Source: a virus. Taken from it: 44,582 nucleotides of DNA. The stretch lies in IMG/VR virus record IMGVR_UViG_3300009509_000036, positions 1 to 44,582 of that record, one strand, 5' to 3'. Made by a program: the position numbers and the translations under genes. Under the pieces are notes generated by a model that worked only from the letters and a program-made list of their open reading frames with translations, made no database searches and was not told where the DNA came from. Positions 3,279-30,644 of this stretch are shown piece by piece. Position 1 is the first letter of the stretch. Each line of letters opens with the position of its first letter.

Positions 3279-3288
3279 TTACTACTCC

Positions 3289-14118: not shown

Positions 14119-14137
14119 TATCACACGACTCCCCTAT
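14093..14137 (-). terminator. Strong rho-independent terminator between island and packaging genes
   Basis: On the minus strand, ATAGGGGAGTCGTGTGA, a 3-base loop, and TCACACGATTTCCCTAT form a 17-bp arm pair with two internal mismatches. The stem is followed by a run of T residues ending TTTTTTTAT. It lies after the wHTH gene (stop at 14163) and before terS. This is the clearest transcription boundary in the window; on the plus strand no U tract follows, so it acts only on leftward transcription. Confidence 0.9.
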
Positions 14138-14465: not shown

Positions 14466-14622
14466 AGTCTTCGCAATATGCTATCGCTGCCACCTTTCCT
14501 TTCCAACAATCTTTTATCTGTTTGCACTTTACTTTTTTACAAAACTTGTTTGTATTCTTATATCTTCCATCTGGAACTTTTATGTCTGTCTCGTATATCA
14601 TTGTTTTCTTAGAAGAACTCAT
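14452..14622 (-). CDS. Small four-cysteine protein next to a radical SAM gene
   Basis: A 56-residue gene. The product begins MSSSKKTMIYETDIKVP and continues with FCKKVKCKQIKDCWKGKVAAIAYCEDY. That is four cysteines in a C-x4-C-x5-C-x10-C arrangement with a final Y-C-E-D-Y, which would bind zinc or an iron-sulfur cluster. It overlaps the radical SAM gene upstream by 14 bases (ATGAGTTCTTCTAA) and the wHTH gene by 14. The tight coupling suggests it works with that radical SAM enzyme, as partner or substrate, or is a general zinc-binding accessory. Confidence 0.6.
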   Translation of the reverse strand: MSSSKKTMIYETDIKVPDGRYKNTNKFCKKVKCKQIKDCWKGKVAAIAYCEDYEKR

Positions 14623-15748
14623 AGGTTACTCCATCTTCTAGTATCTGGTCTGCAAGATACACTACGTTGTCAAATGGTAGTTCAAGTATTGACGGATAAT
14701 CTACATAGCCAAGGGAAGACATAGGCGATACTCCACGATAGAACTTTGTGTCATTAGAACAGTCATTTATAATCACAGGCCAATCTTCCTTCTCTGCTAG
14801 TTCTATAACATCATATGCATAGTGTCTGCTAGAGATAGGTGAGACATAACCCCTTCTGTGTTTGTATACTGGTCCTTCTGTCTTCACAAACTCTTGTAAC
14901 GTCTCTATATAACATATCTGTAGTTCTGGCATGTTGATTTGGTTTAGACCAGTGTAGTAGATAACATCCTTACACTTCTCAGCAAACCACTTAAACGATT
15001 TGCTAAAGATAGGAGTTTCTATCAACACCCACGGTATAGTAGTTTTTGCGTATGCCATACTATCAATAACAAGGTCTGAGAAGTCAGATGCAAATAAGTT
15101 ATATCTAATTTCTGTTAGTCCACATCTAGCCAATCTATCAACAACATCTCTAGTAGCCTTCACTCCGTTCGTGTACAAGTATTGATGTACGCCTCGCTTG
15201 CTGATATGTTCCATTAATGGGTAAATGCTCTCAGCTTCCTCTAAGGGTTCACGCTGTAACCATCCTACTGCTCCATAGGGAAACACACCCTCACGTGCTA
15301 CCTGTTTATCCACCAACAGCTTAGCCTCGTCTAGAGTAAACGACATCTTATGACCAGAGAATTGATACAGTCCTTTCCCTATTGTAGATAACGCTTTATA
15401 TCTGTGGTAGCAAAAGGAACAGTTCTGCGTACACTTAGTCGAGTGTCTTACATGTGTTATAGGTGAGGTTAGACAAGCGTTGCACCCTGGAGATATCAAC
15501 TCAAACATATCTCTATACAGTGCCTCGTCTTTATACTTACCACCAAACCAAAAGGACACGAATCTATTGTCATCTTGGTACAAATGCTCAAGCTTATCCT
15601 GTCGTTTACGTATGTCGTCAATGTGCTTATTATAAAACAAACGTTCAACATACATAACTAACTCAATTAAGTCTTGAGATATCCCATGTGATTTACTCGC
15701 CCTTACTAACTCAGCTACAACTTCCTCTTTAGTCCAATGCGTCTTCAT
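14609..15748 (-). CDS. Radical SAM protein
   Basis: A 379-residue radical SAM enzyme. Residues near 105-112 contain C-T-Q-N-C-S-F-C, the C-x3-C-x2-C motif holding the [4Fe-4S] cluster that cleaves S-adenosylmethionine. It is followed by HQYLYTNGVKATRDVV and LTEIRYNLFASDF, strands of the partial TIM barrel. The N-terminal 90 residues form an unassigned helical domain. Downstream cysteines (ELQICYIETL, VIINDCSNDT) do not form an obvious SPASM pattern. The reaction cannot be read from sequence. It abuts the heptose-kinase-like gene (1-base overlap), so a role in sugar or glycan tailoring is plausible; a peptide substrate is the alternative. Confidence 0.8.
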   Translation of the reverse strand: MKTHWTKEEVVAELVRASKSHGISQDLIELVMYVERLFYNKHIDDIRKRQDKLEHLYQDDNRFVSFWFGGKYKDEALYRDMFELISPGCNACLTSPITHVRHSTKCTQNCSFCYHRYKALSTIGKGLYQFSGHKMSFTLDEAKLLVDKQVAREGVFPYGAVGWLQREPLEEAESIYPLMEHISKRGVHQYLYTNGVKATRDVVDRLARCGLTEIRYNLFASDFSDLVIDSMAYAKTTIPWVLIETPIFSKSFKWFAEKCKDVIYYTGLNQINMPELQICYIETLQEFVKTEGPVYKHRRGYVSPISSRHYAYDVIELAEKEDWPVIINDCSNDTKFYRGVSPMSSLGYVDYPSILELPFDNVVYLADQILEDGVTYEFF

Positions 15749-16713
15749 TATACCTCCACGTCATGCATATTGACCGCAACCGTACCCAACTTAGACACAG
15801 CAACACCAGCAGCCTCGTTAGCGAACTCAGCCGCTATCAGCATGTTAAAGTCTTCCTCAAAGTAGTCAGGTTCGATACCAGCAGCGTCAACAGCCAGAGC
15901 TGCAATCACAGTGTCACCAGCACCAGATACATCAGCTACTTCTACCTTTACTGCATCCACTATCGTAGACTTCTTATTCGCTTCTGCCACAAGTATCCCA
16001 TCACCGCCTAGTGTCACCACTAAGTAATTCCAACCATACTGTCCTGCTACCTCTGGTGCTACCTTAGCTACTTCACTAATCGTACTGATAAAGGAATTGT
16101 AGTAGTGGTTGTAAAACGCTATGAACTCTTTTAGGTTAGGAGTCACACAAAACGCATCAACATACTTAGACCAATCCAATCCCTTCGGGTCTACGAACAC
16201 AGGCACATTATTGCTTCTAGCGTAGTGTATGGTATCTACAGCAATCGCATTACTAATCATACCCTTCGCATAGTCAGAGATAATAACAGCACCTACATCC
16301 TTCATAAGCTGTTTCATTCGACTACGAGTACTATTACCGCTATTAATGTACAAGGGTGCTGTACTCTCGCAGTCAATACGTAGCATATGCTGACCACCAG
16401 CTACAACCCTTGTCTTGGTTGTAGTAGGACGATCTTTCTCTGCGACTAGATAGTCTGTCACACCTAGCTCACGCAGTAGTCCTCTAAGGATGTCAGCCTC
16501 TCGGTCTTTACCTACCAACCCCATAAGAATAGCTGTATCCCAACGCTCACTAAGACTAGCTACGTTAGCCGCTACGTTGGCCGCCCCACCAAGTACGTAG
16601 GTAACCTCGTCCAACTCAAATACTGGCACTGGTGCCTCTGGAGAAATCCTTGTGGTTCTCCCCCAATAGTAACAGTCCAGCATTACATCGCCTACAACTA
16701 ATATATTACTCAC
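15748..16713 (-). CDS. HldE N-terminal-like carbohydrate kinase (PfkB; heptose-7-phosphate kinase type)
   Basis: A PfkB-family sugar kinase. The N-terminus ILVVGDVMLDCYYWGRTTRIS followed by PEAPVPVF is the hallmark of HldE/RfaE domain I, the D-glycero-beta-D-manno-heptose-7-phosphate kinase. GGAANVAANVA (substrate loop), KTRVVAGGQHMLRID and VSGAGDTVIAAL (anion hole and catalytic Asp) are intact. The adenylyltransferase domain II of full HldE is absent, so it corresponds to the separate HldA form. I chose GTG at 16713 because AAAGGA sits about 8 bases upstream; ATG at 16722 would leave no room for that site. With the GT9 gene in the late region it could supply heptose, though no isomerase or adenylyltransferase lies in the window. 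Confidence 0.82.
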   Translation of the reverse strand: MSNILVVGDVMLDCYYWGRTTRISPEAPVPVFELDEVTYVLGGAANVAANVASLSERWDTAILMGLVGKDREADILRGLLRELGVTDYLVAEKDRPTTTKTRVVAGGQHMLRIDCESTAPLYINSGNSTRSRMKQLMKDVGAVIISDYAKGMISNAIAVDTIHYARSNNVPVFVDPKGLDWSKYVDAFCVTPNLKEFIAFYNHYYNSFISTISEVAKVAPEVAGQYGWNYLVVTLGGDGILVAEANKKSTIVDAVKVEVADVSGAGDTVIAALAVDAAGIEPDYFEEDFNMLIAAEFANEAAGVAVSKLGTVAVNMHDVEV

Positions 16714-16981
16714 AGTCCACATCCTTTCTGTGCATCTTCTTACATTTATCGCACATCCATTCTATTTCGTCATAATGCTTACCAAACTTAGGCGTGGTGT
16801 ATTTATGTGAACCTACTAACAAGTTCTTTGCTCCCTTCGGCACTGACATGTACCCTTGGTCTGCAAAGTCTACTCCCATAGGTTTATCTATTGCATCTAT
16901 CCTCTTACCCTTTAATGAGTCATCGAACACTACAGTTGCTTGTTCTTTATGTTCTTCAATTACACTCTTATCCGTTGGCAT
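16706..16981 (-). CDS. Small protein with C-terminal zinc-binding cysteines
   Basis: A 91-residue protein starting at ATG 16981 behind GGAGGTTGAAG; a TTG six bases earlier is less likely. The C-terminus reads WMCDKCKKMHRKDVDCE, a C-x2-C with H and C ligands that could form a treble-clef or ribbon site. A central KGAKNLLVGSHKYTTPKFG segment is basic. No family is recognised. It overlaps both neighbours (the 58-residue gene upstream and the kinase downstream), which implies co-translation. Confidence 0.55.
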   Translation of the reverse strand: MPTDKSVIEEHKEQATVVFDDSLKGKRIDAIDKPMGVDFADQGYMSVPKGAKNLLVGSHKYTTPKFGKHYDEIEWMCDKCKKMHRKDVDCE

Positions 16982-17144
16982 CTTCAACCTCCACGTATAA
17001 AGTTTTAGCTAATGCTTTCATATAAGGACATGTGAACTCGTCAAATGTCTTTATGTTGTACTTGTTAATCACAAACTCCATGAGGTCAACAGAAGCCTCA
17101 ATGATTTCCCATACATCCGTATTTCCATCAATTAGTTCTAACAT
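16968..17144 (-). CDS. Small acidic helical protein
   Basis: A 58-residue gene starting in a TAATG overlap with the MazG stop codon. The product starts MLELIDGNTDVWEIIEASV and continues with YNIKTFDEFTCPYMKALAK: two predicted helices, acidic N-terminus, one cysteine. I recognise no family. The TAATG coupling to MazG and the 14-base overlap into the next gene support it as real. Confidence 0.55.
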   Translation of the reverse strand: MLELIDGNTDVWEIIEASVDLMEFVINKYNIKTFDEFTCPYMKALAKTLYVEVEDANG

Positions 17145-17461
17145 TATCTGTTGTCTCCTTCTCCGCTTATAGCACCCCTATCTGCTCTATCTCCTAACTT
17201 AATAAGATTACCCTCAGCTATCTGTCCAAGGTCTAACCCTAGTTCTGTAGCTAAAGCAGCGCAGTACCACAACACGTCTCCTAGCTCGTTAGCTATGTCA
17301 TCGAAGTTGAGTGCACCATCTCTAATATGTTTCTTAACTTTATTCGCAATCTCTCCTGCCTCTCCAGCTAATCCCATTGTAGCGTAGTAAACACCATTCC
17401 AAGTATCCCTAGGATAGATAGCTGTCTTAATTGATTTCTCTTGGTACTCTCTAAACTTCAT
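17144..17461 (-). CDS. MazG-like nucleotide pyrophosphohydrolase
   Basis: A 105-residue all-alpha NTP pyrophosphatase. Residues 33-37 (GEAGE) and 59-62 (ELGD) supply the paired acidic metal ligands of the MazG fold (E-x2-E then E-x2-D), with KKHIRDG between them. MazG-type enzymes hydrolyse (d)NTPs to monophosphate and diphosphate; phage versions alter host nucleotide or (p)ppGpp pools. The start at 17461 follows GGAGGAAGAAG; an earlier in-frame start eight codons upstream is less supported. It overlaps the upstream small gene by 11 bases. Confidence 0.85.
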   Translation of the reverse strand: MKFREYQEKSIKTAIYPRDTWNGVYYATMGLAGEAGEIANKVKKHIRDGALNFDDIANELGDVLWYCAALATELGLDLGQIAEGNLIKLGDRADRGAISGEGDNR

Positions 17462-17648
17462 CTTCTTCCTCCAATCCACAAACACAATTCATGCGTAGGC
17501 ATGTACATTCCTGTTCTATAATCTCCTGAGTTTCAAGCTTAAACTCTTGACGATCATACACTGTCTTAGGTGTGTGTTCCATCGTCGGCCTATGAAACTT
17601 CTTCCTTACCTTCGTCATCAATCTCCTAGGCTGTTCGCCACGTTTCAT
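17451..17648 (-). CDS. Small basic/acidic protein with Cys cluster
   Basis: A 65-residue protein with a basic N-terminus (MKRGEQPRRLMTKVRKKF), a short helix and C-terminal CTCLRMNCVCGLEEEDEV, four cysteines in a dense C-x-C-x4-C-x-C arrangement. It could chelate zinc or bind an iron-sulfur cluster. No family is recognised. The ATG follows AAGGAGTGGTATC, a good ribosome site, and the stop overlaps MazG. Confidence 0.5.
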   Translation of the reverse strand: MKRGEQPRRLMTKVRKKFHRPTMEHTPKTVYDRQEFKLETQEIIEQECTCLRMNCVCGLEEEDEV

Positions 17649-17659
17649 GATACCACTCC

Positions 17660-17884
17660 TTACTTAGGTTGTTCTAGTCTTTCCTTAATGATCGTTACAA
17701 TCTTTATTGCATCCTCGCTTGGAGCCTCTTCCAGCACCTCGTACAGCGCAGTCATCTTCGTGATCTTCCTGTCCGCATCCACAATGTCCGCCCTGAACGT
17801 GTCCTGCTTCCTTACAGTTGCAAACTTCTCCAACCACAACAACTCGTCCTCTATCATCGTCTTTATCTTCTTCTCCGATAACAT
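17660..17884 (-). CDS. Small helical protein overlapping a metallopeptidase-like gene
   Basis: A 74-residue protein starting MLSEKKIKTMIEDELLWLEK after GGAGGTGGGAAG, a strong site. It is helical and charged throughout, ending RLEQPK, and reads like a real protein in this frame. An alternate frame of the same DNA (17685-17884) is the C-terminal third of the metallopeptidase-like reading frame, and that translation is low-complexity. I therefore consider this the coding frame for most of the region. Function unknown. Confidence 0.6.
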   Translation of the reverse strand: MLSEKKIKTMIEDELLWLEKFATVRKQDTFRADIVDADRKITKMTALYEVLEEAPSEDAIKIVTIIKERLEQPK

Positions 17885-18239
17885 CTTCCCACCTCCTACG
17901 AAATTCTTTTCTAAGATATGATCTCCACAACTCATACATAGTAAAGTCGTGGTCTTGCTGAGACAGCACATGAGCATACTCATGTATTAACACAGTGGCA
18001 GCCTCAATTAAATCTAGTGCGTCATCTATATAAATGACATGCCATTGGTAGTTTCCTGTAGCGCACACCTGTCCTTGTCCATACCCACCTCTGGCTTTTG
18101 TTCCATCTCGTTTGCTTAAGTTAGGTACAAACTGTACCCATACCTCTTGCTCTATATTATAGATATCCTCTAATATATTCAGTTCTCTAACAAACCTAAA
18201 GTCTCTTTCCTCACCAGCCCTACTAATCAGAATAAACAT
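17685..18239 (-). CDS. Metallopeptidase-like protein (HExxH) with doubtful C-terminal extension
   Basis: The frame starts MFILISRAGEERDFRF, with a 17-base overlap with the GT2-fusion gene. Around residues 82-89 it carries TVLIHEYAHVLS, a zinc-metallopeptidase HEYAH motif within a helix, followed by D-H-D-F and a helical stretch (ELWRSYLRKEFRRRWEDV). This resembles small phage zinc peptidase-like proteins that act on proteins or cell wall. After about residue 118 the translation turns into Asp/Gly/Val/Cys-rich low complexity where another gene's frame is well formed. The true product is therefore probably about 120 residues, and the open frame beyond may be shared or lack a stop. Confidence 0.55.
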   Translation of the reverse strand: MFILISRAGEERDFRFVRELNILEDIYNIEQEVWVQFVPNLSKRDGTKARGGYGQGQVCATGNYQWHVIYIDDALDLIEAATVLIHEYAHVLSQQDHDFTMYELWRSYLRKEFRRRWEDVIGEEDKDDDRGRVVVVGEVCNCKEAGHVQGGHCGCGQEDHEDDCAVRGAGRGSKRGCNKDCNDH

Positions 18240-19560
18240 TGTCTCTCCTCATAATCTGTTCTGCCAACCAAAACTCATAAGCACTATTAATCTTAACACT
18301 ATCCTCTGGCGACATAACCACATAACCAATCTTACCGCCTACCATATGCCCCTTCTCTAACAAATCCTTTGTTGCTACGTATACAGCACCATTCTCTCGC
18401 AACAGACTTTCCCTCTCAATCTTAATCTGTCTGTTGTGTCGCCCTACTGGTACAAGACTGTTCTTTCCTCGTCTGTAGTAGAACGCAAAGTCCTCGGTGA
18501 CTGAAACAACAGAGTCGAAGTGAAATAGGTATTTCTGGTAGATAGCTTCATCTATGTGGTACTGCTTGCGTAACGGAACGTTAGCGAATAGCACACACGC
18601 TACATCGTATTGTGGATACTTACGCAAAGCTGTTAGTGCCACAAAGCTAGGGTTCAAAAAGTAACTATTCGTCTTTGGCCTCATAACTACAGGAAGTCCA
18701 TGTGCTCTCTGTACGTAGTCTTCTACATGTATGTCTGGTGTGGATACCACTATCTCAGACAGGGAGGACTTCTTAGCTACGTCTATCGTGTAGTCTATCA
18801 ACCTCTTTCCATTCAACATCTCTAAGGAACCGCTTCTAGGGTAGATAGACTTCTGCGTTGCCATTATCACTCCCAACGCCTCATGCTCTTCTACGTTCAT
18901 ACCTTTGATCTTGGTGCGTTCCATTCCTACTTTACAATGATCGTAGCTTAACGTATGGAACCCATACTTCCTGTAGTAGAACAATGGCATGTTAATATTA
19001 TGGGGCTTGTACTTCTCAACAAACCTCAACCATATATCCATTCCATCTTGGCACGACAACTGCTCATTGTAACCTTCTAACTGTCGCATGATGTCAGTTC
19101 TAAACATTGTGCATGCACCATGAGGAGCCTTGTCATACACCAACCACTCGTCGTCTATCTTATCTCTCCGAACTATCTCCCCTACATTACTGTCTTCGTC
19201 CATCTTGTAGTAGTCTGGGTACACCAGCCCTACCTCTGGTCTTACATCCAAAGCGTTAGACATAACTAACAACGCCATTGGTTCTAGCTTGTCGTCAGCA
19301 TCTAACCTCATGATGTACTTGCCCTCAGCCAACTGTAGTGCTTTGTTGGCACAATGAGGTAGCCCCTTACTCTCTTCAAAGTTAATGATACGTATACGCT
19401 TATCCCACTCATACTCTTTCATTATGTTCAAGGTTCCGTCTGTGGAACCATCGTTGATTAGGATAAGTTCAAAGTCTTGCACAGACTGAGATAGCACGCT
19501 ATCTATAGCTTCTCTAAGGTAACGAGCTGCGTTCTTAGCTGGAATATAAATCGTTATCAT
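18223..19560 (-). CDS. GT2 glycosyltransferase fused to NeuA-like cytidylyltransferase domain
   Basis: A 445-residue two-domain protein. Residues 1-225 are a family-2 (GT-A) glycosyltransferase: ITIYIPAKNAARYL, INDGSTD at 35-41, RLDADD at 85-90 (the DxD metal site), and the acceptor-side motif CQDGMDIWLRF near 170-180. Residues 229-445 resemble CMP-nonulosonate (NeuA-type) synthetases: VIMATQKSIYPRSGS, NGKRLIDYTIDVAKKSSLSEIVVSTPD, then VACVLFANVPLRKQYHIDEAI. The usual R-x-GSK-x-x-x-KN signature is degenerate, so catalytic competence is unsure. A single chain that activates and transfers a sugar is the attractive reading. It overlaps the methyltransferase upstream and the peptidase-like gene downstream. 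Confidence 0.75.
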   Translation of the reverse strand: MITIYIPAKNAARYLREAIDSVLSQSVQDFELILINDGSTDGTLNIMKEYEWDKRIRIINFEESKGLPHCANKALQLAEGKYIMRLDADDKLEPMALLVMSNALDVRPEVGLVYPDYYKMDEDSNVGEIVRRDKIDDEWLVYDKAPHGACTMFRTDIMRQLEGYNEQLSCQDGMDIWLRFVEKYKPHNINMPLFYYRKYGFHTLSYDHCKVGMERTKIKGMNVEEHEALGVIMATQKSIYPRSGSLEMLNGKRLIDYTIDVAKKSSLSEIVVSTPDIHVEDYVQRAHGLPVVMRPKTNSYFLNPSFVALTALRKYPQYDVACVLFANVPLRKQYHIDEAIYQKYLFHFDSVVSVTEDFAFYYRRGKNSLVPVGRHNRQIKIERESLLRENGAVYVATKDLLEKGHMVGGKIGYVVMSPEDSVKINSAYEFWLAEQIMRRDNVYSD

Positions 19561-20452
19561 GTTGCATCCATTCGGGGTATTTACTAGCTACGATAGCATC
19601 CGTAGACTTCAGGCATGGTATCCCACCAACTATCGGATACACCGCCAAAGCTTCTGGACTGTAATACGCCTCTCCTATCTTGTACATCTCCGTTTTGTAT
19701 TTAGGACATACATAGTGTAACTCTGTAAGAACATTAGAGTTCTTTTCTATAATAGTAATTGCTGCTGGATTCATGTTGTTCTTCTGTACATCCATCAGCC
19801 TATGCTCCACCACCTTATACCCTAACAGTTTTATCTGCTCGTATAAAGAGATACAGTAACCATGCTCAACCATACGCTGACGAGCGTCAGCATGTGCTAA
19901 GTCAAAAGCAGGTTCCGCAAGAACTAGATACTGCTTAGCTACTCGGTATAGCTCTTGAAGTATCGGACGTTCGTTACTACCATTAGGTTCGATAGCATGT
20001 GCTGTGTACACAACGTCCACACAGGATGAAGGAAATGGTAGATTAAACATACTCGCAGTATGTAAGTGAACGTTCTCAAACTTGTGCTTCCACAACCATT
20101 GGTCAGCATACGCAACTCTAGACCAAGAGATGTCTGACGCAAAAACATTCATATCATCCCCTGTAACTTCCAGCACACCAGCCATCGTAGTTGCTTCGCC
20201 TACCCCTACTTCCATCAAGGAAGTAATCTCTCCTAGCTGTTGTATGTATCCTCCCAACTCAGCATTGAACTCCCCCCACAGCTTAGCCACCAGTGGGATA
20301 TCCATCAAGTCTGTATACTGCCCTGTAAGGATATCGTATGTGACTTCAATTATCTCTTCGTCGTTATGCAGGGAGTCTTTAGCCTCACGAAGTATCTTAC
20401 TAACATTCTTCCCCTGCTTATACATCTTTTGTAAATCACGTGGAGTCACCAT
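19535..20452 (-). CDS. SAM methyltransferase with Trm112p-like C-terminus
   Basis: A 305-residue class I methyltransferase. Residues 78-112 hold the AdoMet-binding strand and loop (SLMEVGVGEATTMAGVLEV then NVFASDISWSRV). Later come FENVHLHTASMFNLPFP and VDVVYTAHAIEPNGSNE, the acidic loop and motif IV positions. Near residues 245-290 is YVCPKYKTEMYKIGEAYYSPE then YPIVGGIPCLKSTDAI, similar to Trm112p-like zinc ribbons (CPxC...YPI...GIP), though the second cysteine of CPxC is a Tyr here. Zinc binding is therefore doubtful. In a sugar island it could O- or N-methylate a sugar. The ATG follows GTGAGGAATTTAT. It overlaps the B12-type radical SAM gene upstream by 17 bases. Confidence 0.75.
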   Translation of the reverse strand: MVTPRDLQKMYKQGKNVSKILREAKDSLHNDEEIIEVTYDILTGQYTDLMDIPLVAKLWGEFNAELGGYIQQLGEITSLMEVGVGEATTMAGVLEVTGDDMNVFASDISWSRVAYADQWLWKHKFENVHLHTASMFNLPFPSSCVDVVYTAHAIEPNGSNERPILQELYRVAKQYLVLAEPAFDLAHADARQRMVEHGYCISLYEQIKLLGYKVVEHRLMDVQKNNMNPAAITIIEKNSNVLTELHYVCPKYKTEMYKIGEAYYSPEALAVYPIVGGIPCLKSTDAIVASKYPEWMQHDNDLYSS

Positions 20453-21752
20453 ATAAATTCCTCACATATTGTACTTTAGGGTCATTGTATCCATACAGTG
20501 CTGTAGCCCTCTCAAGGTAGCCGTGTGGGAAGATAAACCCATACTTGTCTTTATATTCATGATGTCCTTCTTGGTCTAACCACAAGTACATGTCACTAAT
20601 GGGTATACCAATAAATATGAACTGGTCTGCGCTAGTAGGTTTCAACTCGTCTATCAACCTCTGCGTCATTACCATGTCCTCAGTGCGCTCCCCAGGAAAC
20701 CCATACATCCATGTAGTGTATGTGTTGATACCGTTGTCACGCAATAGAGGAAATACTCTACGATAATCCTCTGTAGTCTCCTGCTTATTCATCAGATGCA
20801 ACACTCTGTTACTTCCACTCTCACATCCTATATACAACCCTGCACATCCAGACCTTGCCATTCGTTCCGCACGCTCTGGGGTTATACCTCTAGCTCTACT
20901 CTCACACACCCATTTAAAACCATAACCTTCTAACAGCCGACAGTACTCGTCTACCCTATCCCAATTAGCTGTGAAGTTATCCTCTCTAAAGTAGAAGTTC
21001 TTAATCCCATACTTGTCAGACAGTTTCAGCATATGCTCAACTACGTTGATCGCTGGTATGTAGCTGTACTTGGGATGCACGTAGATACCAGCACAGAACT
21101 TACAGCTATACGGACACCCTCTCGACGTATTCAGTATGATCGCATCTTCGTTAATACCAAACTCTCCAAGTGAAAAGTTATACGGCATATTTATAAACTT
21201 GTCGTAGTCAGGCCATTCAAGTCTGTGCATATACGCTTGTGGCATACACCTTCCGTCAGAGATGAATACACCGTTGTCGTTGTAGTAACCTGCCATTGGT
21301 TGCTCATTAACGATGTAGAGCATTTGGTACTCACCAGCACCCTTCACCGCTTGGTCAAAAGAGCTAGGTACACTCTCTGGAAACAATGTAGGATGTGGAC
21401 CACCACACACCTGCTTGATATGTGGATAGCGTAACTTCAACTTGTACGACAACTCATAAGCGTTTAAGTGCGTTAGTGTAGAGATATGCATACCGATGTA
21501 GTCAGGCTCAAAGTCTTTGATCTCGTCGTCAATACATATGTTAAATTGCTCTGGCATATTCTGTATCTTGGTAGAGTCAAGTAAGAGATGCTCACCAGCA
21601 AAAGTATACAAGTCCACTATCCTTGTCTCATGCCCAAACTCTTCTAAGTTCGCAGCAATAAACCCTAATCCTTGGGGAGGTCTACCACATCCAAAATGCA
21701 GAGGAGAATCCCCTTGCCTTGGCCTAGGTGTTGTCATCAATAATACTTTCAT
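20436..21752 (-). CDS. B12-binding-type radical SAM protein
   Basis: A 438-residue protein starting MKVLLMTTPRPRQGD after GGAGATAAA. Residues 1-140 look like a cobalamin-binding-type (Rossmann) domain: PPQGLGFIAANLEEFGHETRIVDL, then KDFEPDYIGMHISTLTHL and GGPHPTLFPE. Around residues 205-212 the radical SAM site reads C-P-Y-S-C-K-F-C (C-x3-C-x2-C). The barrel continues with NFYFREDNFTANWDRV, GLYIGCESGSNRVL and WMYGFPGERTEDM. This is the B12-rSAM (class B methyltransferase-like/BchE-like) arrangement. Such enzymes methylate unactivated carbons or rearrange sugar and other substrates; the specific reaction is unknown. It lies between two methyltransferase genes, matching a tailoring role. Confidence 0.85.
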   Translation of the reverse strand: MKVLLMTTPRPRQGDSPLHFGCGRPPQGLGFIAANLEEFGHETRIVDLYTFAGEHLLLDSTKIQNMPEQFNICIDDEIKDFEPDYIGMHISTLTHLNAYELSYKLKLRYPHIKQVCGGPHPTLFPESVPSSFDQAVKGAGEYQMLYIVNEQPMAGYYNDNGVFISDGRCMPQAYMHRLEWPDYDKFINMPYNFSLGEFGINEDAIILNTSRGCPYSCKFCAGIYVHPKYSYIPAINVVEHMLKLSDKYGIKNFYFREDNFTANWDRVDEYCRLLEGYGFKWVCESRARGITPERAERMARSGCAGLYIGCESGSNRVLHLMNKQETTEDYRRVFPLLRDNGINTYTTWMYGFPGERTEDMVMTQRLIDELKPTSADQFIFIGIPISDMYLWLDQEGHHEYKDKYGFIFPHGYLERATALYGYNDPKVQYVRNLYGDST

Positions 21753-21760
21753 TTTATCTC

Positions 21761-23594: not shown

Positions 23595-24634
23595 TCGTAA
23601 TCACCTTTCTCCAGCATCTCGTCTTCTTCGATATCTCGTGTTGCAGTACCACCGATTATTAACCTTGCTTCGTTAAACTGAAGACCTGTGCCAGGTCTAA
23701 TATACTTTACATGTTGTTCTGTAAATGTTTCACCTTTCTTTATAGGAAGTCGCATGTGCCAGCTTCTAGTAGCAGCGTCAAACGCTTTAGCCTCAGCCTC
23801 AGACCTCTCAAACGACCAACTACCAAGAAGTACCTCAGCCCTACGTATAGCTTGCACCATGTGAGCAAACTCTAGAGGGTCAGCCGCAAAGAAGTGGTTC
23901 GATACCTTCATGGTCTTGTCAATCGTAAAATGTTTCTCGTACACCCTAGCACCAGCAGCAACCGCCAGCATAGGAACGTCAAGTTGATCTGGTGGTGTGT
24001 GGTCTGAATAACCAACTACTATATCTCCAAACGATTCGTGAAGAACATGTATCCTGTTTAGCCTCGGTAGTGGAGCAGGGTTTTGTAACACACATCCCAT
24101 AAGAACACAAGGAACATTCATGTGTCTGATTACTGCTAATCCATTAGCTACAGATGCCACAGTACCGCCACCAGTGGACGCTATCACAGGCAACCCGAAA
24201 CTACATACATGGTATAACAACCCCAAGTTAGTCATGTCACAAGAGGCTACCTTCATAACAGGCACACCTAGTTCTGCTAGCATAGATGCACTCTGTAAGT
24301 CGAACGGTGTAGAGAACGCTATGATTCCCTGTTCCTTCGCAAACTCAAATAGCTCAGCGTAATGTTCCTTGCCAAACTTGTCGAGTTGTTTGTAGTAATC
24401 TATCTGTAACATATCCTCGTCTTTCCAGTATGCCTTAGCCTTACCAGATACGAGTAACTCAGCTTTGTAGGTCTGAAACTTGATAGCGTCAGCACCAGCT
24501 TTCTTTGCCTTAACTATCATCTCCTTCGCTATATCCATATCGCATTCGTGGTTACATGCCGCTTCTGCAATAATAAACACAGGGTAGTCTCTCCCTACCA
24601 TTCGGTCTCCTATTTGAACCATTGGGTTAAACAT
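23564..24634 (-). CDS. neuB-like: NeuB-family nonulosonic (sialic acid-like) synthase
   Basis: A 356-residue protein with the NeuB barrel and SAF domain. VFIIAEAACNHECDMDIA (N-terminal active-site loop), K52 in IKFQTY, K128 in MKVASCD, H212 in GYSDHT, and E233/H235 in YEKHFT match N. meningitidis NeuB catalytic positions (K53, K129, H215, E234, H236). The next conserved Asp (D247 in that enzyme) is Asn246 in SNHFFAADP. SAF-like IKKGETFTEQHVKYIRPGTG closes the chain. NeuB condenses phosphoenolpyruvate with an N-acyl mannosamine-type sugar to give sialic, legionaminic or pseudaminic acid. Which product is unknown. It lies next to a CMP-sugar-synthetase-like gene, a formyltransferase and GTs, and overlaps the peptidase-like gene upstream by 8 bases. 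Confidence 0.85.
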   Translation of the reverse strand: MFNPMVQIGDRMVGRDYPVFIIAEAACNHECDMDIAKEMIVKAKKAGADAIKFQTYKAELLVSGKAKAYWKDEDMLQIDYYKQLDKFGKEHYAELFEFAKEQGIIAFSTPFDLQSASMLAELGVPVMKVASCDMTNLGLLYHVCSFGLPVIASTGGGTVASVANGLAVIRHMNVPCVLMGCVLQNPAPLPRLNRIHVLHESFGDIVVGYSDHTPPDQLDVPMLAVAAGARVYEKHFTIDKTMKVSNHFFAADPLEFAHMVQAIRRAEVLLGSWSFERSEAEAKAFDAATRSWHMRLPIKKGETFTEQHVKYIRPGTGLQFNEARLIIGGTATRDIEEDEMLEKGDYECSSEANQNQ

Positions 24635-25955
24635 GAATAACTCTCCCTGTCTTTATCTTACGTCTTGTCTTTACTAATCCTGCTTGCTCAAGTTGTGCTA
24701 TGAACCTAGCCGCTACTGTATACCTAACACCAGTAGCCGTAGCAATATCAAGTACTGTAACGTCATAGTCTCTCAGCATATCCAAAATATCTTTTATCTT
24801 TGCGTTCAGTACAGGGTCTTGCTGTCTGGGAACCCACAGCCCATGAGACGATAAATGCGGTGTTGCCGTATACTTACGCTTTACCACCATGTTAGTTTCC
24901 ATGATGTTCACAGCATAGATAAGCGCACCCATAGCCTCGTACATATTCTCCCAACTAATGTTGGTAATGTCGTCTGCTGAGGAATGGTATCCCTTGAAGT
25001 GCGACGATTGAATGATATTTCTACTAGCCGACCTAGTAAGTACAACCGTAGGAATATCTATCCCAGGTGCGTTAAACACACCATCGTCATTCACCACAAC
25101 ACTACGATAAGGTTGTCGTGCGTCTTCCCTACCAGTAATATCTCTAACTGCTGTAGTCATAGCTTCTGAAAACTCTGTGCCGGGGATGTAAGCCTCTTGC
25201 ACAACTAAGGGCTGGTTAGGTACTCCAACCATCTCCAGACACGCAGCAAACTTAACATCGTCTATCCTCTTAGGAAACATAGAGAAATAGGCCAAGCTAC
25301 CTAGCGTCTCTGGAAAGAATAGAATACGCCATGTGTAGTAATTGTCTTTCATAGTATCAAGTATCTTATCCGCAAACTCCACTAGAAGTGCACATCCACT
25401 CAGTCCATCCTGAACCTGCCCTGGATGATCTAGGTGAGCAAACAACGCAATACTATCTGGGGATTCACCACGCTTCACAAACTCAGCGATCTCCATCTCA
25501 CCATCAGTATGCTCAGCATCTATAACAACACGCACCTGCTTACCACGTAGTGCCCTAAGCATCTGGTCAACCTCATGAGAAGATATACAAAATCCCCAAC
25601 GTCCGTCTTCGTTGTAATGCTCATACATATAAGGAATTGATAAAGGGTTCTGGTTATCTATAAAAACAAACTGTAGTAGCTCTTCAAAGGGCATGGTAGC
25701 ATCAACCGAACCTGAACCTACTAGTACAGATAAAGGATGTTGCATAGCATCAAATATCTTCTCTCCGTCTAGCTCAATGTATGCATCCTTCAAAGTCCAC
25801 TTCTTAGGAACAGTCCAATCAAAAATCTTCTCGCCACTCTTAACCTTATACCGATTAATAGCAACCCTAGTATTGATGTAGTCTAGGCTCTCTTTGTATT
25901 CGTCTGAAACAACAGACCGTCTCTTACTCCATAGTTTATTGATTGTGTCTCTCAT
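24627..25955 (-). CDS. DUF4910/DUF2172 M28-like aminopeptidase-fold protein with C-terminal wHTH
   Basis: A 442-residue protein. FDWTVPKKWTLKDAYIELDGE (about 45-65), SIPYMYEHYNEDGRWGFCIS (about 106-125) and GEMEIAEFVKRGE (152-164) match the DUF4910/2172 modules. Residues 172-187 (FAHLDHPGQVQDGLSG) hold the His/Asp zinc ligands of M28-like sites, with E216 in PETLGS and an HSSAD near residue 333. About residues 385-442 form a winged helix with ILDMLRDYDVTVLDIATATGVRYTVAARF. Such proteins recur in polysaccharide and nonulosonate clusters; their substrate is not settled. A sugar or amino-sugar N-acyl bond is the reasonable guess. It overlaps the CMP-sugar-synthetase-like gene upstream by 20 bases. 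Confidence 0.75.
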   Translation of the reverse strand: MRDTINKLWSKRRSVVSDEYKESLDYINTRVAINRYKVKSGEKIFDWTVPKKWTLKDAYIELDGEKIFDAMQHPLSVLVGSGSVDATMPFEELLQFVFIDNQNPLSIPYMYEHYNEDGRWGFCISSHEVDQMLRALRGKQVRVVIDAEHTDGEMEIAEFVKRGESPDSIALFAHLDHPGQVQDGLSGCALLVEFADKILDTMKDNYYTWRILFFPETLGSLAYFSMFPKRIDDVKFAACLEMVGVPNQPLVVQEAYIPGTEFSEAMTTAVRDITGREDARQPYRSVVVNDDGVFNAPGIDIPTVVLTRSASRNIIQSSHFKGYHSSADDITNISWENMYEAMGALIYAVNIMETNMVVKRKYTATPHLSSHGLWVPRQQDPVLNAKIKDILDMLRDYDVTVLDIATATGVRYTVAARFIAQLEQAGLVKTRRKIKTGRVIHV

Positions 25956-26514
25956 ACCACCAAGTCCTCCGTAACCTTTCTTCTACTCTTTCTATGTCTT
26001 CCATATAGTGAACGTTGGTACAGTCATCAATCATAACTCCTAAGTAATACGGCCTTCCACAGGTTAGTATGTACTTGGAGTATATCTTTGCTGCTCCGTT
26101 TGGCTCTCCATCTGGAGATATAGAAAACATAAGGTTGTATCCCTTATCGTCCATCTTCTTTATCTCGTCATCTAGTCGCAGGTTCCTATCTGGGTTATCT
26201 ACCTGCAATCCTATAATCTTGTCCACCTGCATGCTCATAGTTGTAGTCATGTAGTAGTAAGCATGAGTGTACACATCTAGTAAAGGTTGCTCGCCACATA
26301 ACTCTAGTGGTCGAGGTATTACCTTACAATTACAATCTCTAGCTACCTTAGCTATATACTCGTCTTCTGTAGACACAAGCACTTGGTGTATACGGTGGTT
26401 GCATCTAGCATAGAAGATAGTCCAGTACAGCAAAGGTTTGTCATATACTAAATATGTGTTCTTCTTGTTCAGCCTAGTCGAGTGACCTTTAGCTGGAATT
26501 ATCGCAACATTCAT
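25936..26514 (-). CDS. neuA-like: CMP-sugar synthetase-like (NeuA-type) cytidylyltransferase
   Basis: A 192-residue nucleotidyltransferase. NVAIIPAKGHSTRLNKKNTYLVYDKPL is the N-terminal A-x-x-P-A-x-G-S-x-R-x-x-x-KN motif in slightly altered form. LYWTIFYARCNHRIHQVLVSTEDEYIAK follows, then VIPRPLELCGEQPLLDVYTHAYYYM. GLQVDNPDRNLRLDDEI matches the acceptor-binding part. NeuA activates nonulosonic acids with CTP as CMP-sugars ready for transfer. Length is slightly short of the bacterial norm (about 220-230). It sits beside the formyltransferase gene (26-base overlap) and one gene away from NeuB, in a classical nonulosonate order. Confidence 0.8.
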   Translation of the reverse strand: MNVAIIPAKGHSTRLNKKNTYLVYDKPLLYWTIFYARCNHRIHQVLVSTEDEYIAKVARDCNCKVIPRPLELCGEQPLLDVYTHAYYYMTTTMSMQVDKIIGLQVDNPDRNLRLDDEIKKMDDKGYNLMFSISPDGEPNGAAKIYSKYILTCGRPYYLGVMIDDCTNVHYMEDIERVEERLRRTWWYERHNQ

Positions 26515-27346
26515 ATTTAACTCCTGGTTGTTCTGCTATTGTTACTTGTCGCATTGGAGAGTCTTTAGTATCCAAGTACTCCCTCAGCATTCCATTGTCA
26601 AGCAAGTACTTCAACACTCGTAGATGGTAGGGTCTGAAATCCCATTTAGACCACACCTTCTCACCCTTAATGTTCTCGTGTTGAAACATGTGTAACGCAC
26701 CTTCGTCCTGTAACTTATACAGTAGGTGCTTGACACACCATACTGTTTCGACGATAGCCCTACACCCTATATCGTGTTGGGTATCATTATGGTAAATAGT
26801 TGGTCTGTGCTGATGTAGTATAGCTCCATCGTCAACCTTCTCATTTATCAAGTGCACAGTAGTACCTAACTTCTCTGGCTGTTGCATATACAAAGGCCAG
26901 AACAAAGTCGCAGCACCACGATACCAAGGAGATAGACCAGCATGCAAGTTGATCGTTAAAGGTGGGCATGCCGACAACAACTTGGTCTTGATAAGCGGAC
27001 CTCCGTATACCAGCACTACGTCAGGGCGTAGGCCGTGTACGAAGCTACACGCCATGTCTGTGTTTAACTCTTTACGCTCTATTTCCATGAAAGCAGGTGG
27101 GTGTCTCAGCAATTGAAAGCACTCACCAAAGTATTCCTTCTCCTTGTTTTCCCGAAGCTGGAAATGCCAATCCATCAGCTTCTTGTCTTCACCCTCATAC
27201 TCTAGCGGAATATCCCCAGAGACTTTCGCTTCCATGTAGTAGTCTCGGTGTGTGACTATGACACCAGATACATCAAAATCTTCCATGATCTTATTTGCGT
27301 AGTATAAGTGTCTGAGACTACTGTTGATAACCATTACGATCTTCAT
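26489..27346 (-). CDS. Sugar N-formyltransferase-like protein
   Basis: A 285-residue formyltransferase-fold protein. INLHAGLSPWYRGAATLFWPLY (about 132-153) with N133 and H135, and KVDDGAILHQH (170-180) with D172, give the N-H-D catalytic triad of Fmt-like and sugar N-formyltransferases that use N10-formyltetrahydrofolate. GTTVHLINEKVDDG is the expected spacing. The N-terminal 60 residues (MKIVMVINSS, then HRDYYMEAKVSGD) form the nucleotide-fold half. Sugar versions formylate the amino group of 3- or 4-amino-sugars on nucleotide carriers; the acceptor here is unknown. It overlaps the CMP-sugar-synthetase-like gene downstream by 26 bases. Confidence 0.78.
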   Translation of the reverse strand: MKIVMVINSSLRHLYYANKIMEDFDVSGVIVTHRDYYMEAKVSGDIPLEYEGEDKKLMDWHFQLRENKEKEYFGECFQLLRHPPAFMEIERKELNTDMACSFVHGLRPDVVLVYGGPLIKTKLLSACPPLTINLHAGLSPWYRGAATLFWPLYMQQPEKLGTTVHLINEKVDDGAILHQHRPTIYHNDTQHDIGCRAIVETVWCVKHLLYKLQDEGALHMFQHENIKGEKVWSKWDFRPYHLRVLKYLLDNGMLREYLDTKDSPMRQVTIAEQPGVKYECCDNSS

Positions 27347-27349
27347 TGT

Positions 27350-28567
27350 TTATCCTTCGATAGTTTGTAATATATATCCTACTGATCTTTCAGAAGCTTT
27401 GCCATCATCCATAAAGTTATAGTAGTAAGCCTTCTCATTGCATGCTTCTATCAAATCAGCTTTGTTATTCGTTATAATCTCTAACCCTTGTACGACTGAT
27501 TCCTCATGCATGGTTGCCTCAATGTAGCAATCTCTACCTTTAAAGAAATCGTCAGTTCCTATCTCCCTACCACAGAGGAACAAGGTAGGAGTCCTAGTAA
27601 TTATAGCCTCTTGTATCGTGGATGAAATGCCACTAATGAAAAACTCACATTCTTGAATTAACTCACGAAATGGTCTTTCATCGCTAGTATACAACACAGG
27701 GTCTTTAACGCCTGACTGCTCAGCCATAAACGCTTGAGCCGAACCAGCAAAGCTATAAGGTCTAGTAGTTATAATTAGCTTAGCTTCTGGATTAGCCTTT
27801 TGGAATTTGGCGAATGCATCGTAGAACACATAGTCGCATCCCACTGGTCTAAGCATATATGTCCAAGGATGTAGAGCAGTCGCAACCGCCATCTCCACAT
27901 TCTTGTATCTAGTGATGTCGTAGTTTGTAGTTGGATTGTATAGATATGTGTTAGGCTCACGAGTAGCCTCTCTACGATAGTAGTGGTCCCAAGCTGCACA
28001 GCCAGTAAGCACACCTTTGAAGTTACGTGATACTCTCTTCTGTACATACTCAACTACCATCTCTCCATTCAAACAATAGTGGTGACCAAATCTGTAATCA
28101 TTCATACCGTTTACAATAGGAGTGAGACAAGAGCTAAAACCATTATACAAACAAAACGTTGGTATACCTTTGTTTCTAGCGTAAGCAGCCAACGCTCCGT
28201 ACTGAGGGTCATGGTCGTTATGTACTACCACAGCATCCACAGGTAGACACTTATCAAATTCCTCACATATAAACTTTCCCTTAAAGAATGCGTGCATAAG
28301 CCAGTTAGCTATAAAGTTACTTGTGTAGTCATGGTTTGATAAAGTAGCCCCACCTACTGTTAAGTTACCAGCCACAGTATGCATAAACTTCTCTCGTTTG
28401 AGAGAATCCTCAGACTCTAAATCAATCTGTCTGTCAAATCTTACCGTCTCTTGATTTTCGTAGTCTGTGTCATAGGTAGTGCACAATGTAAATCCTTCGT
28501 CATTGTGCAAGATATCGTTTACACCCTTTAGTGAAAAGTACCCACTTGTATATATCCTCTTATGCAT
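27350..28567 (-). CDS. GT-B glycosyltransferase/epimerase-fold protein (capsule-type)
   Basis: A 405-residue protein starting MHKRIYTSGYFSL after GGGAGAAAAAG. Residues about 110-145 (DAVVVHNDHDPQYGALAAYARNKGIPTFCLYNG) and about 310-345 (CEFFISGISSTIQEAIITRTPTLFLCG) match the acceptor-half and donor-half strands of GT-B proteins like KpsC/KpsS or CDP-glycerol glycerophosphotransferase-like enzymes. The S-S-T-I-Q-E-A motif corresponds to their nucleotide-binding helix. It lies between the methyltransferase-radical SAM fusion and the formyltransferase. It could use a CMP- or UDP-activated sugar; alternatively it could be an epimerase-fold member. Confidence 0.65.
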   Translation of the reverse strand: MHKRIYTSGYFSLKGVNDILHNDEGFTLCTTYDTDYENQETVRFDRQIDLESEDSLKREKFMHTVAGNLTVGGATLSNHDYTSNFIANWLMHAFFKGKFICEEFDKCLPVDAVVVHNDHDPQYGALAAYARNKGIPTFCLYNGFSSCLTPIVNGMNDYRFGHHYCLNGEMVVEYVQKRVSRNFKGVLTGCAAWDHYYRREATREPNTYLYNPTTNYDITRYKNVEMAVATALHPWTYMLRPVGCDYVFYDAFAKFQKANPEAKLIITTRPYSFAGSAQAFMAEQSGVKDPVLYTSDERPFRELIQECEFFISGISSTIQEAIITRTPTLFLCGREIGTDDFFKGRDCYIEATMHEESVVQGLEIITNNKADLIEACNEKAYYYNFMDDGKASERSVGYILQTIEG

Positions 28568-30644
28568 CTTTTTCTCCCTCGTCATGTACACTCATATAAA
28601 TATGTCGGTATGGTTGCATAGTTCCAAATGTAGACATAATCTTTGAGATAACAGGCATCAGCAACTCAGGCTCCATAGGAAAGAACTCTTCAACTTCCTT
28701 AAAACTTTGTGTGAGAAGCTTGCTCTGGTACACACCTTCATACGATAGGTATTTAGCCAAGGCCATATCATCAAATATTCTATAGATGTTCACAGGCATG
28801 TTAAGTGCCTTTGGTATACTATTCATGTAAGCACACAATAACTCTAGGTGCTTATTCATTTCCAAACCGCCCTTGTTTACAAATTCGTTTACTACTTTCT
28901 TTAGTTCCTTGTTGTTATACAACTCCCACATAGGGTCTATACTAGCATACAACACGTTAAACAATGTGTTGAATAGTTTCTGGTGGTCTTGATCTTTCTG
29001 CGAACAATCAGCCAACAATGCCGCACACATATCAACCAAGTCTGGTTTTCCTCGTGCGATGATATGAGCTATCTGCTCTATAGGTATAGTAACACCTTTA
29101 AACTGTACATGAGGAAAGTCGCAGGGGTTACAGAATCCAAAGTCGTTACACAGCCTGTAGTCTTGATCTATAGGAAATGTACGCTCACGTATACCACCCT
29201 GCTTATCTCTACCAGAATACAACTGATAGTGACATCTATAGATACCACCGTCAGGAGCCATCAAAAACCTAGTGGAGTAACACAACGCTTGCTGTTTCTG
29301 CTTGCATTGAAATCCTGCCTCGTACTTAGCTCTGTCGTTAATACCTGTCTCACCGTAGTCTTTAGCGGCAGTAGAGTCTGGGTTAGGATACCACTCACCC
29401 TCACACTCTCCTAAAAAGGTCTGGGGTGTAATGTGTATACCTCTCTTCAAGAACTTCTGGTGATATCCACCAAAGTTCGTGGAGGGAGTGTCAACCATAG
29501 CTATCTGGTCAATGAAAAACCCTTGCCCTCTAAGTAGGTGTATCTTATCAGCAAACTCGTCCACTGAGATCAACTTAGGATGAAACGAAGTGTTTATCCG
29601 TAAGTTATCCCTACTTTGGATTTCAGTACCAAACTTTAATATATTGTCAGAGGTAAGGTTAGTTGTGATAGTTTTATAGTACCCCTTAACATTATTAACG
29701 ATGTCAAAGAAGTCAGGGTGTAGTGTAGGCTCTCCGCCTATCAATCCCAACCTCATGTTATTCCATCGCTGTAACCTGTTAAGGTACTCTACCCATTCCT
29801 CACCACTCAGTAGGTTCTTCTCATACTCTACCCTAGCCTTCATGAACTCGTCTTTACATACATGCTGGATACAGTAGCTACAGTTGCCAGTACACTTAAA
29901 AGTTAAGAACGCAGCCCAATAGTTATTTCCAAGTAAGTAGTGTGCAGGAACCTTAATAACATCCTTTTTCTTTACACCACATACTAACGCAACAGCGTCA
30001 CCGAAAGGACGTTCCTTCCCAAAAAGCTGTGAGTGATTAAAGATTCTAAACTCAACGTCAGTAAACCCAACGTCAAACATCCTACGCATAACACCACTGA
30101 GCGTAGCCTTCCATAAGTGTGATTCATTCCCAAAGTTAAACGAAGGATGTACTATCACATCATCAAAACCTTGAGGCTCTCCGTCTAGTGGAATAAGTGC
30201 GTAGAAGTAACCACCGTCAGCCAGCACTCTGTATGTATCTCTCAAAGTTTGTAATGGCTTTGGTAAATGCTCTATCACATCTTTAGCCACTACCATAGAG
30301 AACTGCTCGTCTCCAAACTCTAGGTATGTAGCATCCATTACCATACACTTATCGTACACATACTGAGAGTGTTTAATCAAACGAGTGTTGGAATCTATCC
30401 CAACTGCGTCATCATAAATCTCAGCCAACAGCTTAGTGTCATACCCTGTGTTACACCCTAACTCTAGTACACGTACCTCTCCCTGTACTTTAGGTAGCTT
30501 TTCTTTATTGGGTATGTTAGTGTAAAAGACGTTATGCCATACCTTAGCTTCGTCATCGTAGTCGTTCACACTAAGTTTAATCCCTGTCTCAACTGCGTCT
30601 TGTATCAAACTATTTACAGTAAGGTACTTAGTCGTCTTTGACAT
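28560..30644 (-). CDS. Methyltransferase-radical SAM fusion protein
   Basis: A 694-residue fusion. Residues 1-230 are a class I SAM methyltransferase: VRVLELGCNTGYDTKLLAE (motif I, about 58-76), YVYDKCMVMDAT, SMVVAKDVIEHLPKP (motif IV). After a linker, C-T-G-N-C-S-Y-C around residue 255 gives the C-x3-C-x2-C radical SAM cluster, followed by GLIGGEPTLHPDFFDI. A SPASM-like Cys-rich region is seen at roughly 430-500 (FQCKQKQQALCYSTRFLMAPDGGIYRC, then CNDFGFCNPCDFP). About 190 C-terminal helical residues are unassigned. Both halves have intact core motifs. A fused methyltransferase and radical SAM is unusual and points to multi-step modification of one substrate. It heads the island in transcription order. 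Confidence 0.85.
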   Translation of the reverse strand: MSKTTKYLTVNSLIQDAVETGIKLSVNDYDDEAKVWHNVFYTNIPNKEKLPKVQGEVRVLELGCNTGYDTKLLAEIYDDAVGIDSNTRLIKHSQYVYDKCMVMDATYLEFGDEQFSMVVAKDVIEHLPKPLQTLRDTYRVLADGGYFYALIPLDGEPQGFDDVIVHPSFNFGNESHLWKATLSGVMRRMFDVGFTDVEFRIFNHSQLFGKERPFGDAVALVCGVKKKDVIKVPAHYLLGNNYWAAFLTFKCTGNCSYCIQHVCKDEFMKARVEYEKNLLSGEEWVEYLNRLQRWNNMRLGLIGGEPTLHPDFFDIVNNVKGYYKTITTNLTSDNILKFGTEIQSRDNLRINTSFHPKLISVDEFADKIHLLRGQGFFIDQIAMVDTPSTNFGGYHQKFLKRGIHITPQTFLGECEGEWYPNPDSTAAKDYGETGINDRAKYEAGFQCKQKQQALCYSTRFLMAPDGGIYRCHYQLYSGRDKQGGIRERTFPIDQDYRLCNDFGFCNPCDFPHVQFKGVTIPIEQIAHIIARGKPDLVDMCAALLADCSQKDQDHQKLFNTLFNVLYASIDPMWELYNNKELKKVVNEFVNKGGLEMNKHLELLCAYMNSIPKALNMPVNIYRIFDDMALAKYLSYEGVYQSKLLTQSFKEVEEFFPMEPELLMPVISKIMSTFGTMQPYRHIYMSVHDEGEKDA

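Follow-up and report, generated by a model that had tools for sequence, protein, structure and literature searches.

Sugar gene clusters comparable to the one considered here have been described in a clostridial chromosome and in T4-like phages. In Clostridium acetobutylicum, the genes CA_C2187-2199 associate a DUF4910 protein with a NeuB, a nucleotidyltransferase, and a methyltransferase, and a sugar role has been proposed for the protein CA_C2195 from its gene neighbourhood, perhaps in acyl transfer or deacylation (PMC4000134). The glycosyltransferase-rich islands of pelagimyophages have been read as a means of O-chain modification that avoids coinfection (PMC7029224). Here we describe a sugar island in the IMG/VR virus record IMGVR_UViG_3300009509_000036, whose full length of 44,582 bases is called the window. 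The island is a 12-gene operon on the minus strand (17685-30644) that includes a NeuB-type nonulosonate synthase. The production of a cytoplasmic nonulosonic-acid-type glycan during infection is, as we infer, well supported. Whether the operon serves the late synthesis and attachment of a tailored sugar of this type, with a virion protein as the most likely acceptor, is a fuller reading that we regard as about evenly balanced.

The window is a genuine tailed phage on a single linear contig, and almost every gene lies on the minus strand. Its tailed-phage hallmarks are TerL (E-value 1.1e-100), which is closest to that of the Mu-like phage D3112 with 34% identity, and portal (2.2e-67), accompanied by scaffold, major capsid protein, head-tail adaptor, and primase-helicase genes. 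The original prediction, made from the letters of the window, had drawn a glycan island over 14609-30644. This region does hold a same-strand run of 16 open reading frames (ORFs), but the island proper is narrower: the operon spans 12,960 bases (13.0 kb), or 29% of the record, and the rest of the region first drawn belongs to the phage backbone. Neighbouring genes overlap, by 8 to 65 bases, at ten of the 11 internal junctions, and the other junction is a 3-base gap; the operon is flanked by gaps of 199 bp at the 17685 side and 176 bp at the 30644 side. Every island ORF is open and intact. The GC content is flat over the whole record (0.40-0.44), and the codon-usage distance to the phage core, defined by the structural genes, is 0.52 for the island and 0.51 for the phage's own replication genes. 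The corresponding distance between the island and a Scalindua locus carrying the same cassette is 1.24, and the island is far in codon usage from both the bacterial and the marine viral carriers. A chimeric assembly is thus not indicated by GC content, codon usage, or reading frames, and the island appears to be phage DNA. Neither a prophage nor a host emerged when bacterial genomes were scanned for the terminase, and no Rfam RNA was matched in the window. The genes of the operon, with E-values in brackets, are as follows.

17685-18239, minus strand: last gene of the operon, an orphan with a HEYAH motif read in the translation
18223-19560, minus strand: GT2 glycosyltransferase fused to a NeuA-like domain (Glycos_transf_2 9.7e-28; CTP_transf_3 7.6e-6)
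19535-20452, minus strand: methyltransferase dependent on S-adenosylmethionine (SAM) (Methyltransf_25 1.1e-8)
20436-21794, minus strand: B12-binding radical SAM enzyme, partner of NeuB in a cassette (Radical_SAM 4.6e-22; B12-binding 3.3e-9)
21761-22696, minus strand: SAM-dependent methyltransferase (Methyltransf_23 1.3e-11)
22632-23594, minus strand: protein without assignment, possibly all-beta
23564-24634, minus strand: NeuB-type nonulosonate synthase (NeuB 1.8e-61, with SAF)
24627-25955, minus strand: DUF4910/DUF2172 M28-like zinc protein (PF16254 1.7e-46; PF09940 6e-18)
25936-26514, minus strand: short NeuA-like cytidylyltransferase of 192 amino acids (aa) with a non-canonical C-terminus (CTP_transf_3 1.5e-9)
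26489-27346, minus strand: sugar N-formyltransferase (Formyl_trans_N 2.1e-14)
27350-28591, minus strand: probable glycosyltransferase, BFO_1060-like, weakly assigned (NCBIfam NF046086 4.9e-7, below cut-off)
28560-30644, minus strand: class I methyltransferase and radical SAM fusion of 694 aa, first gene of the operon

These family matches bear out the NeuB-type synthase, the formyltransferase, the DUF4910 M28-like protein, the several methyltransferase domains (present in three ORFs), and the radical SAM enzymes that the original prediction had named. NeuB scores 208 bits against PF03102 (cut-off 22.1) and 23.7 bits against SAF (cut-off 21), which places it in the superfamily. Moreover, it retains all eight positions checked (E24, K52, Q54, K128, H212, E233, H235, and R313) against the catalytic, phosphoenolpyruvate-site, and metal-site residues of meningococcal SiaC (E25, K53, Q55, K129, H215, E234, H236, and R314). 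In the NeuB tree, the protein groups with bacterial and viral sequences (support 100/99), while SiaC, PseI, and SpsE, the reference enzymes, fall elsewhere; its companions include NeuB proteins from surface loci of Scalindua, Anammoxibacter, Nitrospinota, Omnitrophota, and SAR11. By its sequence, it belongs to an uncharacterised clade that is set apart from proven sialic or pseudaminic acid synthases, and it forms a long separate branch with at most 49% identity to the nearest relative found. When NeuB, DUF4910, or primase-helicase was used as a single query against viral sequences, no relatives came up; alignment queries were required to find them.

The same clade identifies a cassette common to bacteria and viruses. 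Candidatus Scalindua rubra (L088) carries NeuB, the B12-radical SAM enzyme, the GT2 glycosyltransferase, and the NeuA-like protein in the order of the window, with 49, 45, 54, and 32% identity, respectively. A single-cell contig of SAR11 (L091) has a NeuA-NeuB fusion and the B12-radical SAM gene beside a GT2-type gene, in a locus where an ABC transporter and a formyltransferase-like protein are also encoded, as named from the translations. NeuA-NeuB and B12-radical SAM genes are also present in two IMG/VR viral contigs (L005 and L006), and the B12-radical SAM gene adjoins or lies near NeuB in L005, L006, L088, and L091 with 39-45% identity to that of the window. Between viral L006 and SAR11 L091, the NeuA-NeuB proteins are 72% and the B12-radical SAM proteins 79% identical, a likeness that suggests recent exchange. 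The cassette is thus mobile between surface loci of bacteria and contigs of viruses. IMG/VR classes L005 and L006 as viral; no Gp23, Terminase_6N, or tail sheath was found in them, and their sole phage-type signs are an exonuclease and a glycosyltransferase.

Two CMP-synthetase-like domains had been anticipated, and CTP_transf_3 is indeed matched in two ORFs, but both lack the canonical metal-binding DxD motif. The short NeuA-like protein (38.4 bits, cut-off 22.6) retains the N-terminal CTP-binding signature IPAKxxSTRLxxKN, which reads IPAKGHSTRLNKKN in the window, and has TNVH in place of DxD. This replacement is conserved as TNxH in the homologues of L005, L006, L090, and L091 and as VNIH in that of L089, in all five of which the short NeuA is fused to NeuB. 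CMP-sugar activation would likely proceed through this protein. In the NeuA-like domain fused to GT2, both the N-terminal signature and DxD are replaced, so that it does not qualify as a synthetase by its motifs. The same replacements are seen in Scalindua, where the two are adjacent genes, and in the GT2 and NeuA-like fusions of Nitrospinota, Omnitrophota, and Anammoxibacter. Decay of a phage copy was considered as an origin of this domain and rejected, since the altered motifs are the same in bacteria; as judged from them, it represents an established bacterial family and may not be a cytidylyltransferase. The expectation of both GT-A and GT-B transferases held for GT2, whereas the GT-B assignment at 27350-28591 is weak, with the sub-cut-off NCBIfam match listed above and Epimerase_2 at 0.0038, also below its cut-off.

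Several further island genes look suited to finishing the sugar. The formyltransferase (54.1 bits, cut-off 26.1) has the triad Asn133-His135-Asp173, and its relatives in the PDB include GDP-perosamine formyltransferase, ArnA, and PseJ. The DUF4910 protein (158.5 bits, cut-off 26.6; PDB match 3k9t, 4.6e-42) retains His177, Asp183, His324, Pro215, and Gly179, the pattern of single-zinc ligands and replaced peptidase residues described for CA_C2195 (PMC4000134), and is a possible amino-sugar deacylase or transacylase. Deacylation followed by formylation would be a natural reading of this pair. The B12-radical SAM enzyme matches both of its domains above the cut-offs (79.4 and 37 bits) and has CxxxCxxC at C227, as expected of B12-dependent class B radical SAM proteins. 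The fusion protein combines Methyltransf_11 at aa 60-148 (1e-14) with Radical_SAM at aa 248-331 (7.3e-8) and CxxxCxxC at aa 251, and it had no tblastn match among 50,697 phage records. A beta-propeller proposed at 22632-23594 was not recovered: the protein has no Pfam or NCBIfam match, and its low-confidence AlphaFold2 model, with a predicted local distance difference test score (pLDDT) of 41, consists mostly of strands. The orphan at 17685-18239 has a tail rich in Cys, His, and Gly and no Pfam, PHROG, or NCBIfam match. The island enzymes are soluble: none of the proteins showed a membrane segment in a hydropathy scan, and flippase, polymerase, and ligase families were not found either, both of which favour a cytoplasmic acceptor.

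A second group of sugar genes, outside the region first proposed, lies within the head/connector module, where three glycosyltransferase-like genes follow one another over 2514-5275.

2514-3278, minus strand: GT9 heptosyltransferase-like protein, weak (Glyco_transf_9 3.2e-4, below cut-off)
3289-4230, minus strand: glycosyltransferase in the head module (PF13524, Glyco_trans_1_2, 3.5e-18)
4214-5275, minus strand: GT-B/GT9-fold protein in the head module (AlphaFold2 model, pLDDT 80)

The model of 4214-5275 has the GT-B fold of GT9 enzymes, its top Foldseek matches being 3tov (GT9, 8e-9), 1psw (WaaF, 2e-8), and 2h1h, with WaaC at 4e-8 and, lower in the ranking, the protein heptosyltransferase TibC at 1e-4. 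The fold is like that of the heptosyltransferases WaaF, WaaC, and TibC, but sequence identity to them is just 11-14%, and the Glyco_transf_9 Pfam model gave no match. For 2514-3278, the likeness to GT9 heptosyltransferases lies in the sequence and is weak: this model reached 20.5 of the 22 bits of its cut-off, and the other signals are 1psw at 0.0045 and TIGR02195 at 4.3e-4. A scan with the major capsid protein defined a phage family of 33 related loci. In the family contigs long enough to show it, a homologue of 4214-5275 (alignment of 13 members) comes after the capsid gene, and a PF13524 homologue of 3289-4230 occurs in nearly all contigs that reach past this gene, with a score above the cut-off in most of the related contigs; homologues of 2514-3278 occur in L118, L119, L135, and L142. 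Hence at least two of the three head-module transferases are conserved over the phage family, and two are heptosyltransferase-like. One related phage (G022, L114) carries, in the interval from its head glycosyltransferase to its adaptor genes, a DegT aminotransferase, a radical SAM protein, a fusion of hexapeptide and methyltransferase domains, and GT8/GT-B genes. Richness in glycan genes does not extend evenly over the wider family: Pfam matches on 93 extra ORFs were mostly to regulatory domains and domains of the homing-endonuclease type, and sugar genes were few. The simplest explanation for transferases built into a head module is that they glycosylate virion proteins, and this supports the virion as the target of the island as well.

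Taken together, these observations could be assembled into a route. NeuB would condense phosphoenolpyruvate with a host-derived amino-sugar aldose, and the short NeuA-like enzyme would convert the product to a CMP-sugar. The DUF4910 protein may remove or exchange an acyl group, the formyltransferase would place a formyl group onto the freed amine, and the methyltransferases, together with the radical SAM enzyme of B12 type, would add methyl groups, O-linked and possibly C-linked. Soluble GT2 and GT-B-like enzymes would then transfer the sugar in the cytoplasm, most likely to a virion protein already glycosylated by the head-module transferases, perhaps with heptose; a heptose stem is suggested by the GT9-type folds and by a heptose-kinase-like PfkB protein in the backbone. 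A more specific version, namely an N-formylated, C-methylated nonulosonate of a new type on a heptose-type stem built by the head-module GT9 proteins on the phage's own capsid, with an inherited system and an interchangeable island for the terminal sugar, we consider unlikely.

The term self-coded, which had been applied to this glycan, could not be upheld. The precursor-making families PF01370 (UDP-sugar dehydratase/epimerase), PF01041 (aminotransferase), and PF02350 (hydrolysing 2-epimerase), all of which were detected in control genomes, were not found in the 44.6-kb record, which is possibly incomplete. The amino-sugar substrate would therefore have to come from the host, unless absent contig ends carry the genes, and a nonulosonate, or an amino-sugar related to it, would accordingly be a product of the host itself.

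This missing pathway is one of several points that weigh against the attachment of a tailored nonulosonate to the virion. The NCBIfam equivalogs are missed by NeuB (NeuB_NnaB, 269 of 399.65; PseI, 236 of 340.25), and meningococcal Asn184 is aligned with Leu183 in the window, which argues against plain sialic acid. CMP activation is uncertain given that both cytidylyltransferase domains are without DxD, and the B12 protein lacks a DxHxxG motif. Finally, the island and the virion operon are set apart by a strong terminator (14101-14137), and the bacterial copies of the cassette sit in cell-surface-type loci with exporters (L091 and L088). The last two points, among them the surface-polysaccharide-type setting of these nearest bacterial copies, also speak for remodelling of the host surface, in which host precursors would be diverted to an altered surface sugar that the host exports, thereby blocking rival phages or aiding the infected cell. 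Further in its favour are the close identity of the viral L006 and SAR11 L091 cassettes and the O-chain and coinfection-avoidance reading given by the pelagimyophage authors (PMC7029224). Nevertheless, remodelling leaves the conserved head-module glycosyltransferases unexplained, and the island has no membrane protein, flippase, or lipid-linked transferase. Between the two acceptors originally offered, the virion thus gains, although the acceptor is not settled; host remodelling is the main rival and a substantial possibility, if the lesser one.

It is improbable that the island is a passenger or a recently captured host sugar locus that hardly serves the phage, or that it arose as a chimera in assembly. 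Two sister contigs (L085 and L086) end just short of the island, and these two were all that came back when the radical SAM protein of the backbone was used to look for a sister phage spanning it. The ancestry of the cassette is, moreover, clearly bacterial. On the other hand, the intact, overlapping ORFs, the codon usage and GC content that fit the phage, and the long separate branch of NeuB all argue against this reading. To our knowledge, NeuB, NeuA, DUF4910, and sugar formyltransferases have no role in DNA. Decoration of the phage DNA against restriction by the transferases and methylases is accordingly very improbable, for although the phage carries a dCMP deaminase, MazG, and a dGTP-diphosphohydrolase-like domain and DNA can be a substrate of phage glycosyltransferases (PMC7029224), no match to a hydroxymethylase or a comparable enzyme of base modification was seen among the families scanned, and the bacterial homologues of the island enzymes lie in sugar loci.

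Beside the island, 14609-17485 holds four genes, for MazG, a small ORF, PfkB, and a radical SAM protein. This block is part of the phage backbone, because it is kept beside TerL in the sister contig L086 with 55-64% identity; L085 also keeps the radical SAM gene.

14101-14137, minus strand: terminator-like hairpin with a 17-pair stem followed by a T run (fold z-score -6.15)
14609-15748, minus strand: radical SAM protein, backbone (PF04055 1.2e-7; 57% identity to L085 and L086)
15748-16722, minus strand: PfkB kinase, heptose-7-phosphate-kinase-like, backbone (PF00294 2.2e-34; 64% identity to L086 and 34% to L132)
17144-17485, minus strand: MazG-type pyrophosphohydrolase, backbone (PF03819 8.9e-9; 60% identity to L086)

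The hairpin lies just upstream of the TerL operon and separates it from the island and backbone genes. The heptose-kinase-like protein that had been counted in the island is real as a likeness but belongs to the backbone. Its best PDB match is the heptose 7-phosphate kinase 4e84 (2e-42), and TIGR02198 is by far its best model, followed by full-length HldE (248.6 bits) and ribokinase (68.8), but the score of 299.4 bits falls short of the TIGR02198 equivalog cut-off of 345. Two more radical SAM-type proteins are encoded at 41447-42385 and 42637-43590, one of which matches phrog_9298 at 7.5e-82. Five radical SAM proteins in one small phage suggest an anaerobic host. A sulfotransferase-like protein below the Pfam cut-off is encoded at 40364-41176, with a weak homologue adjoining a 2514-type gene in the related contig L135, and a cupin akin to the C-terminal domain of mannose-6-phosphate isomerase lies at 37938-38372, with a homologue in viral L006, where it stands roughly 9 kb upstream of the NeuB gene.

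The window points to a definite group of related phages that can be put to the test: their sugar transferases are placed within the head module, and genes for exotic sugar finishing come as an island. Nearly a third of a 44.6-kb phage genome is predicted to be devoted to finishing, decorating, and attaching an unusual acidic sugar. If virions carry nonulosonates, this would bear on phage mimicry or escape of recognition by hosts and by animal immunity. The analysis also exposes an uncharacterised cassette of NeuB, short NeuA, and B12-radical SAM enzymes common to anammox bacteria, Nitrospinota, Omnitrophota, and SAR11.

NeuB itself is already known in phage, and phages with such genes are common, which weakens the rarity claimed for the island. 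IMG/VR holds 450 stretches with NeuB, and a terminase or T4-type capsid match was present in 10 of the 26 contigs tested; several are confirmed T4-like phages. NeuB also occurs in Kyanoviridae virus AG-345-L05. Most of these viral NeuB proteins fall in other clades than that of the window, and DUF4910 stands beside NeuB in one of 14 viral contigs tested (L005). A curated phage collection gave two NeuB record matches, one being a Moritella bacterial contig; this record (L002, FPLJ01000048.1) is a capsule/sialic acid locus of Moritella viscosa that appears to be bacterial. No paper on phage-encoded nonulosonate synthesis was found in the open-access literature.

Compared with known systems, the operon CA_C2186-2199 of C. 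acetobutylicum (PMC4000134) likewise brings together a NeuB-type synthase, a nucleotidyltransferase, DUF4910, a methyltransferase, and glycosyltransferases, but it is chromosomal, includes acetyltransferases, an acyl carrier protein, an ATP-grasp ligase, and a sugar epimerase, and lists no B12-radical SAM enzyme. The hypervariable host-recognition islands of pelagimyophages and cyanomyophages (PMC7029224) share clusters of glycosyltransferase and lipopolysaccharide-type sugar genes, including rfaE. These islands average 44.6 kb in large T4-like genomes, whereas the window is a different and smaller phage, and NeuB and sialic acid are not among the terms of that text. The bacterial loci of Scalindua (L088), Nitrospinota (L089), Omnitrophota (L090), Anammoxibacter (L096), and SAR11 (L091) have the same NeuB clade and short NeuA, with NeuA mostly fused to NeuB, in longer neighbourhoods, which have genes of precursor type and export type where these were read. 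To this cassette, the phage adds DUF4910, the formyltransferase, several methyltransferases, and the methyltransferase-radical SAM fusion in one operon. Among the systems examined, what is unusual is the share of a small genome given to the island and its tailoring set of N-formylation, DUF4910, methylases, and B12-type radical SAM, and what is new is the combination itself and its connection with conserved sugar transferases in the head module.

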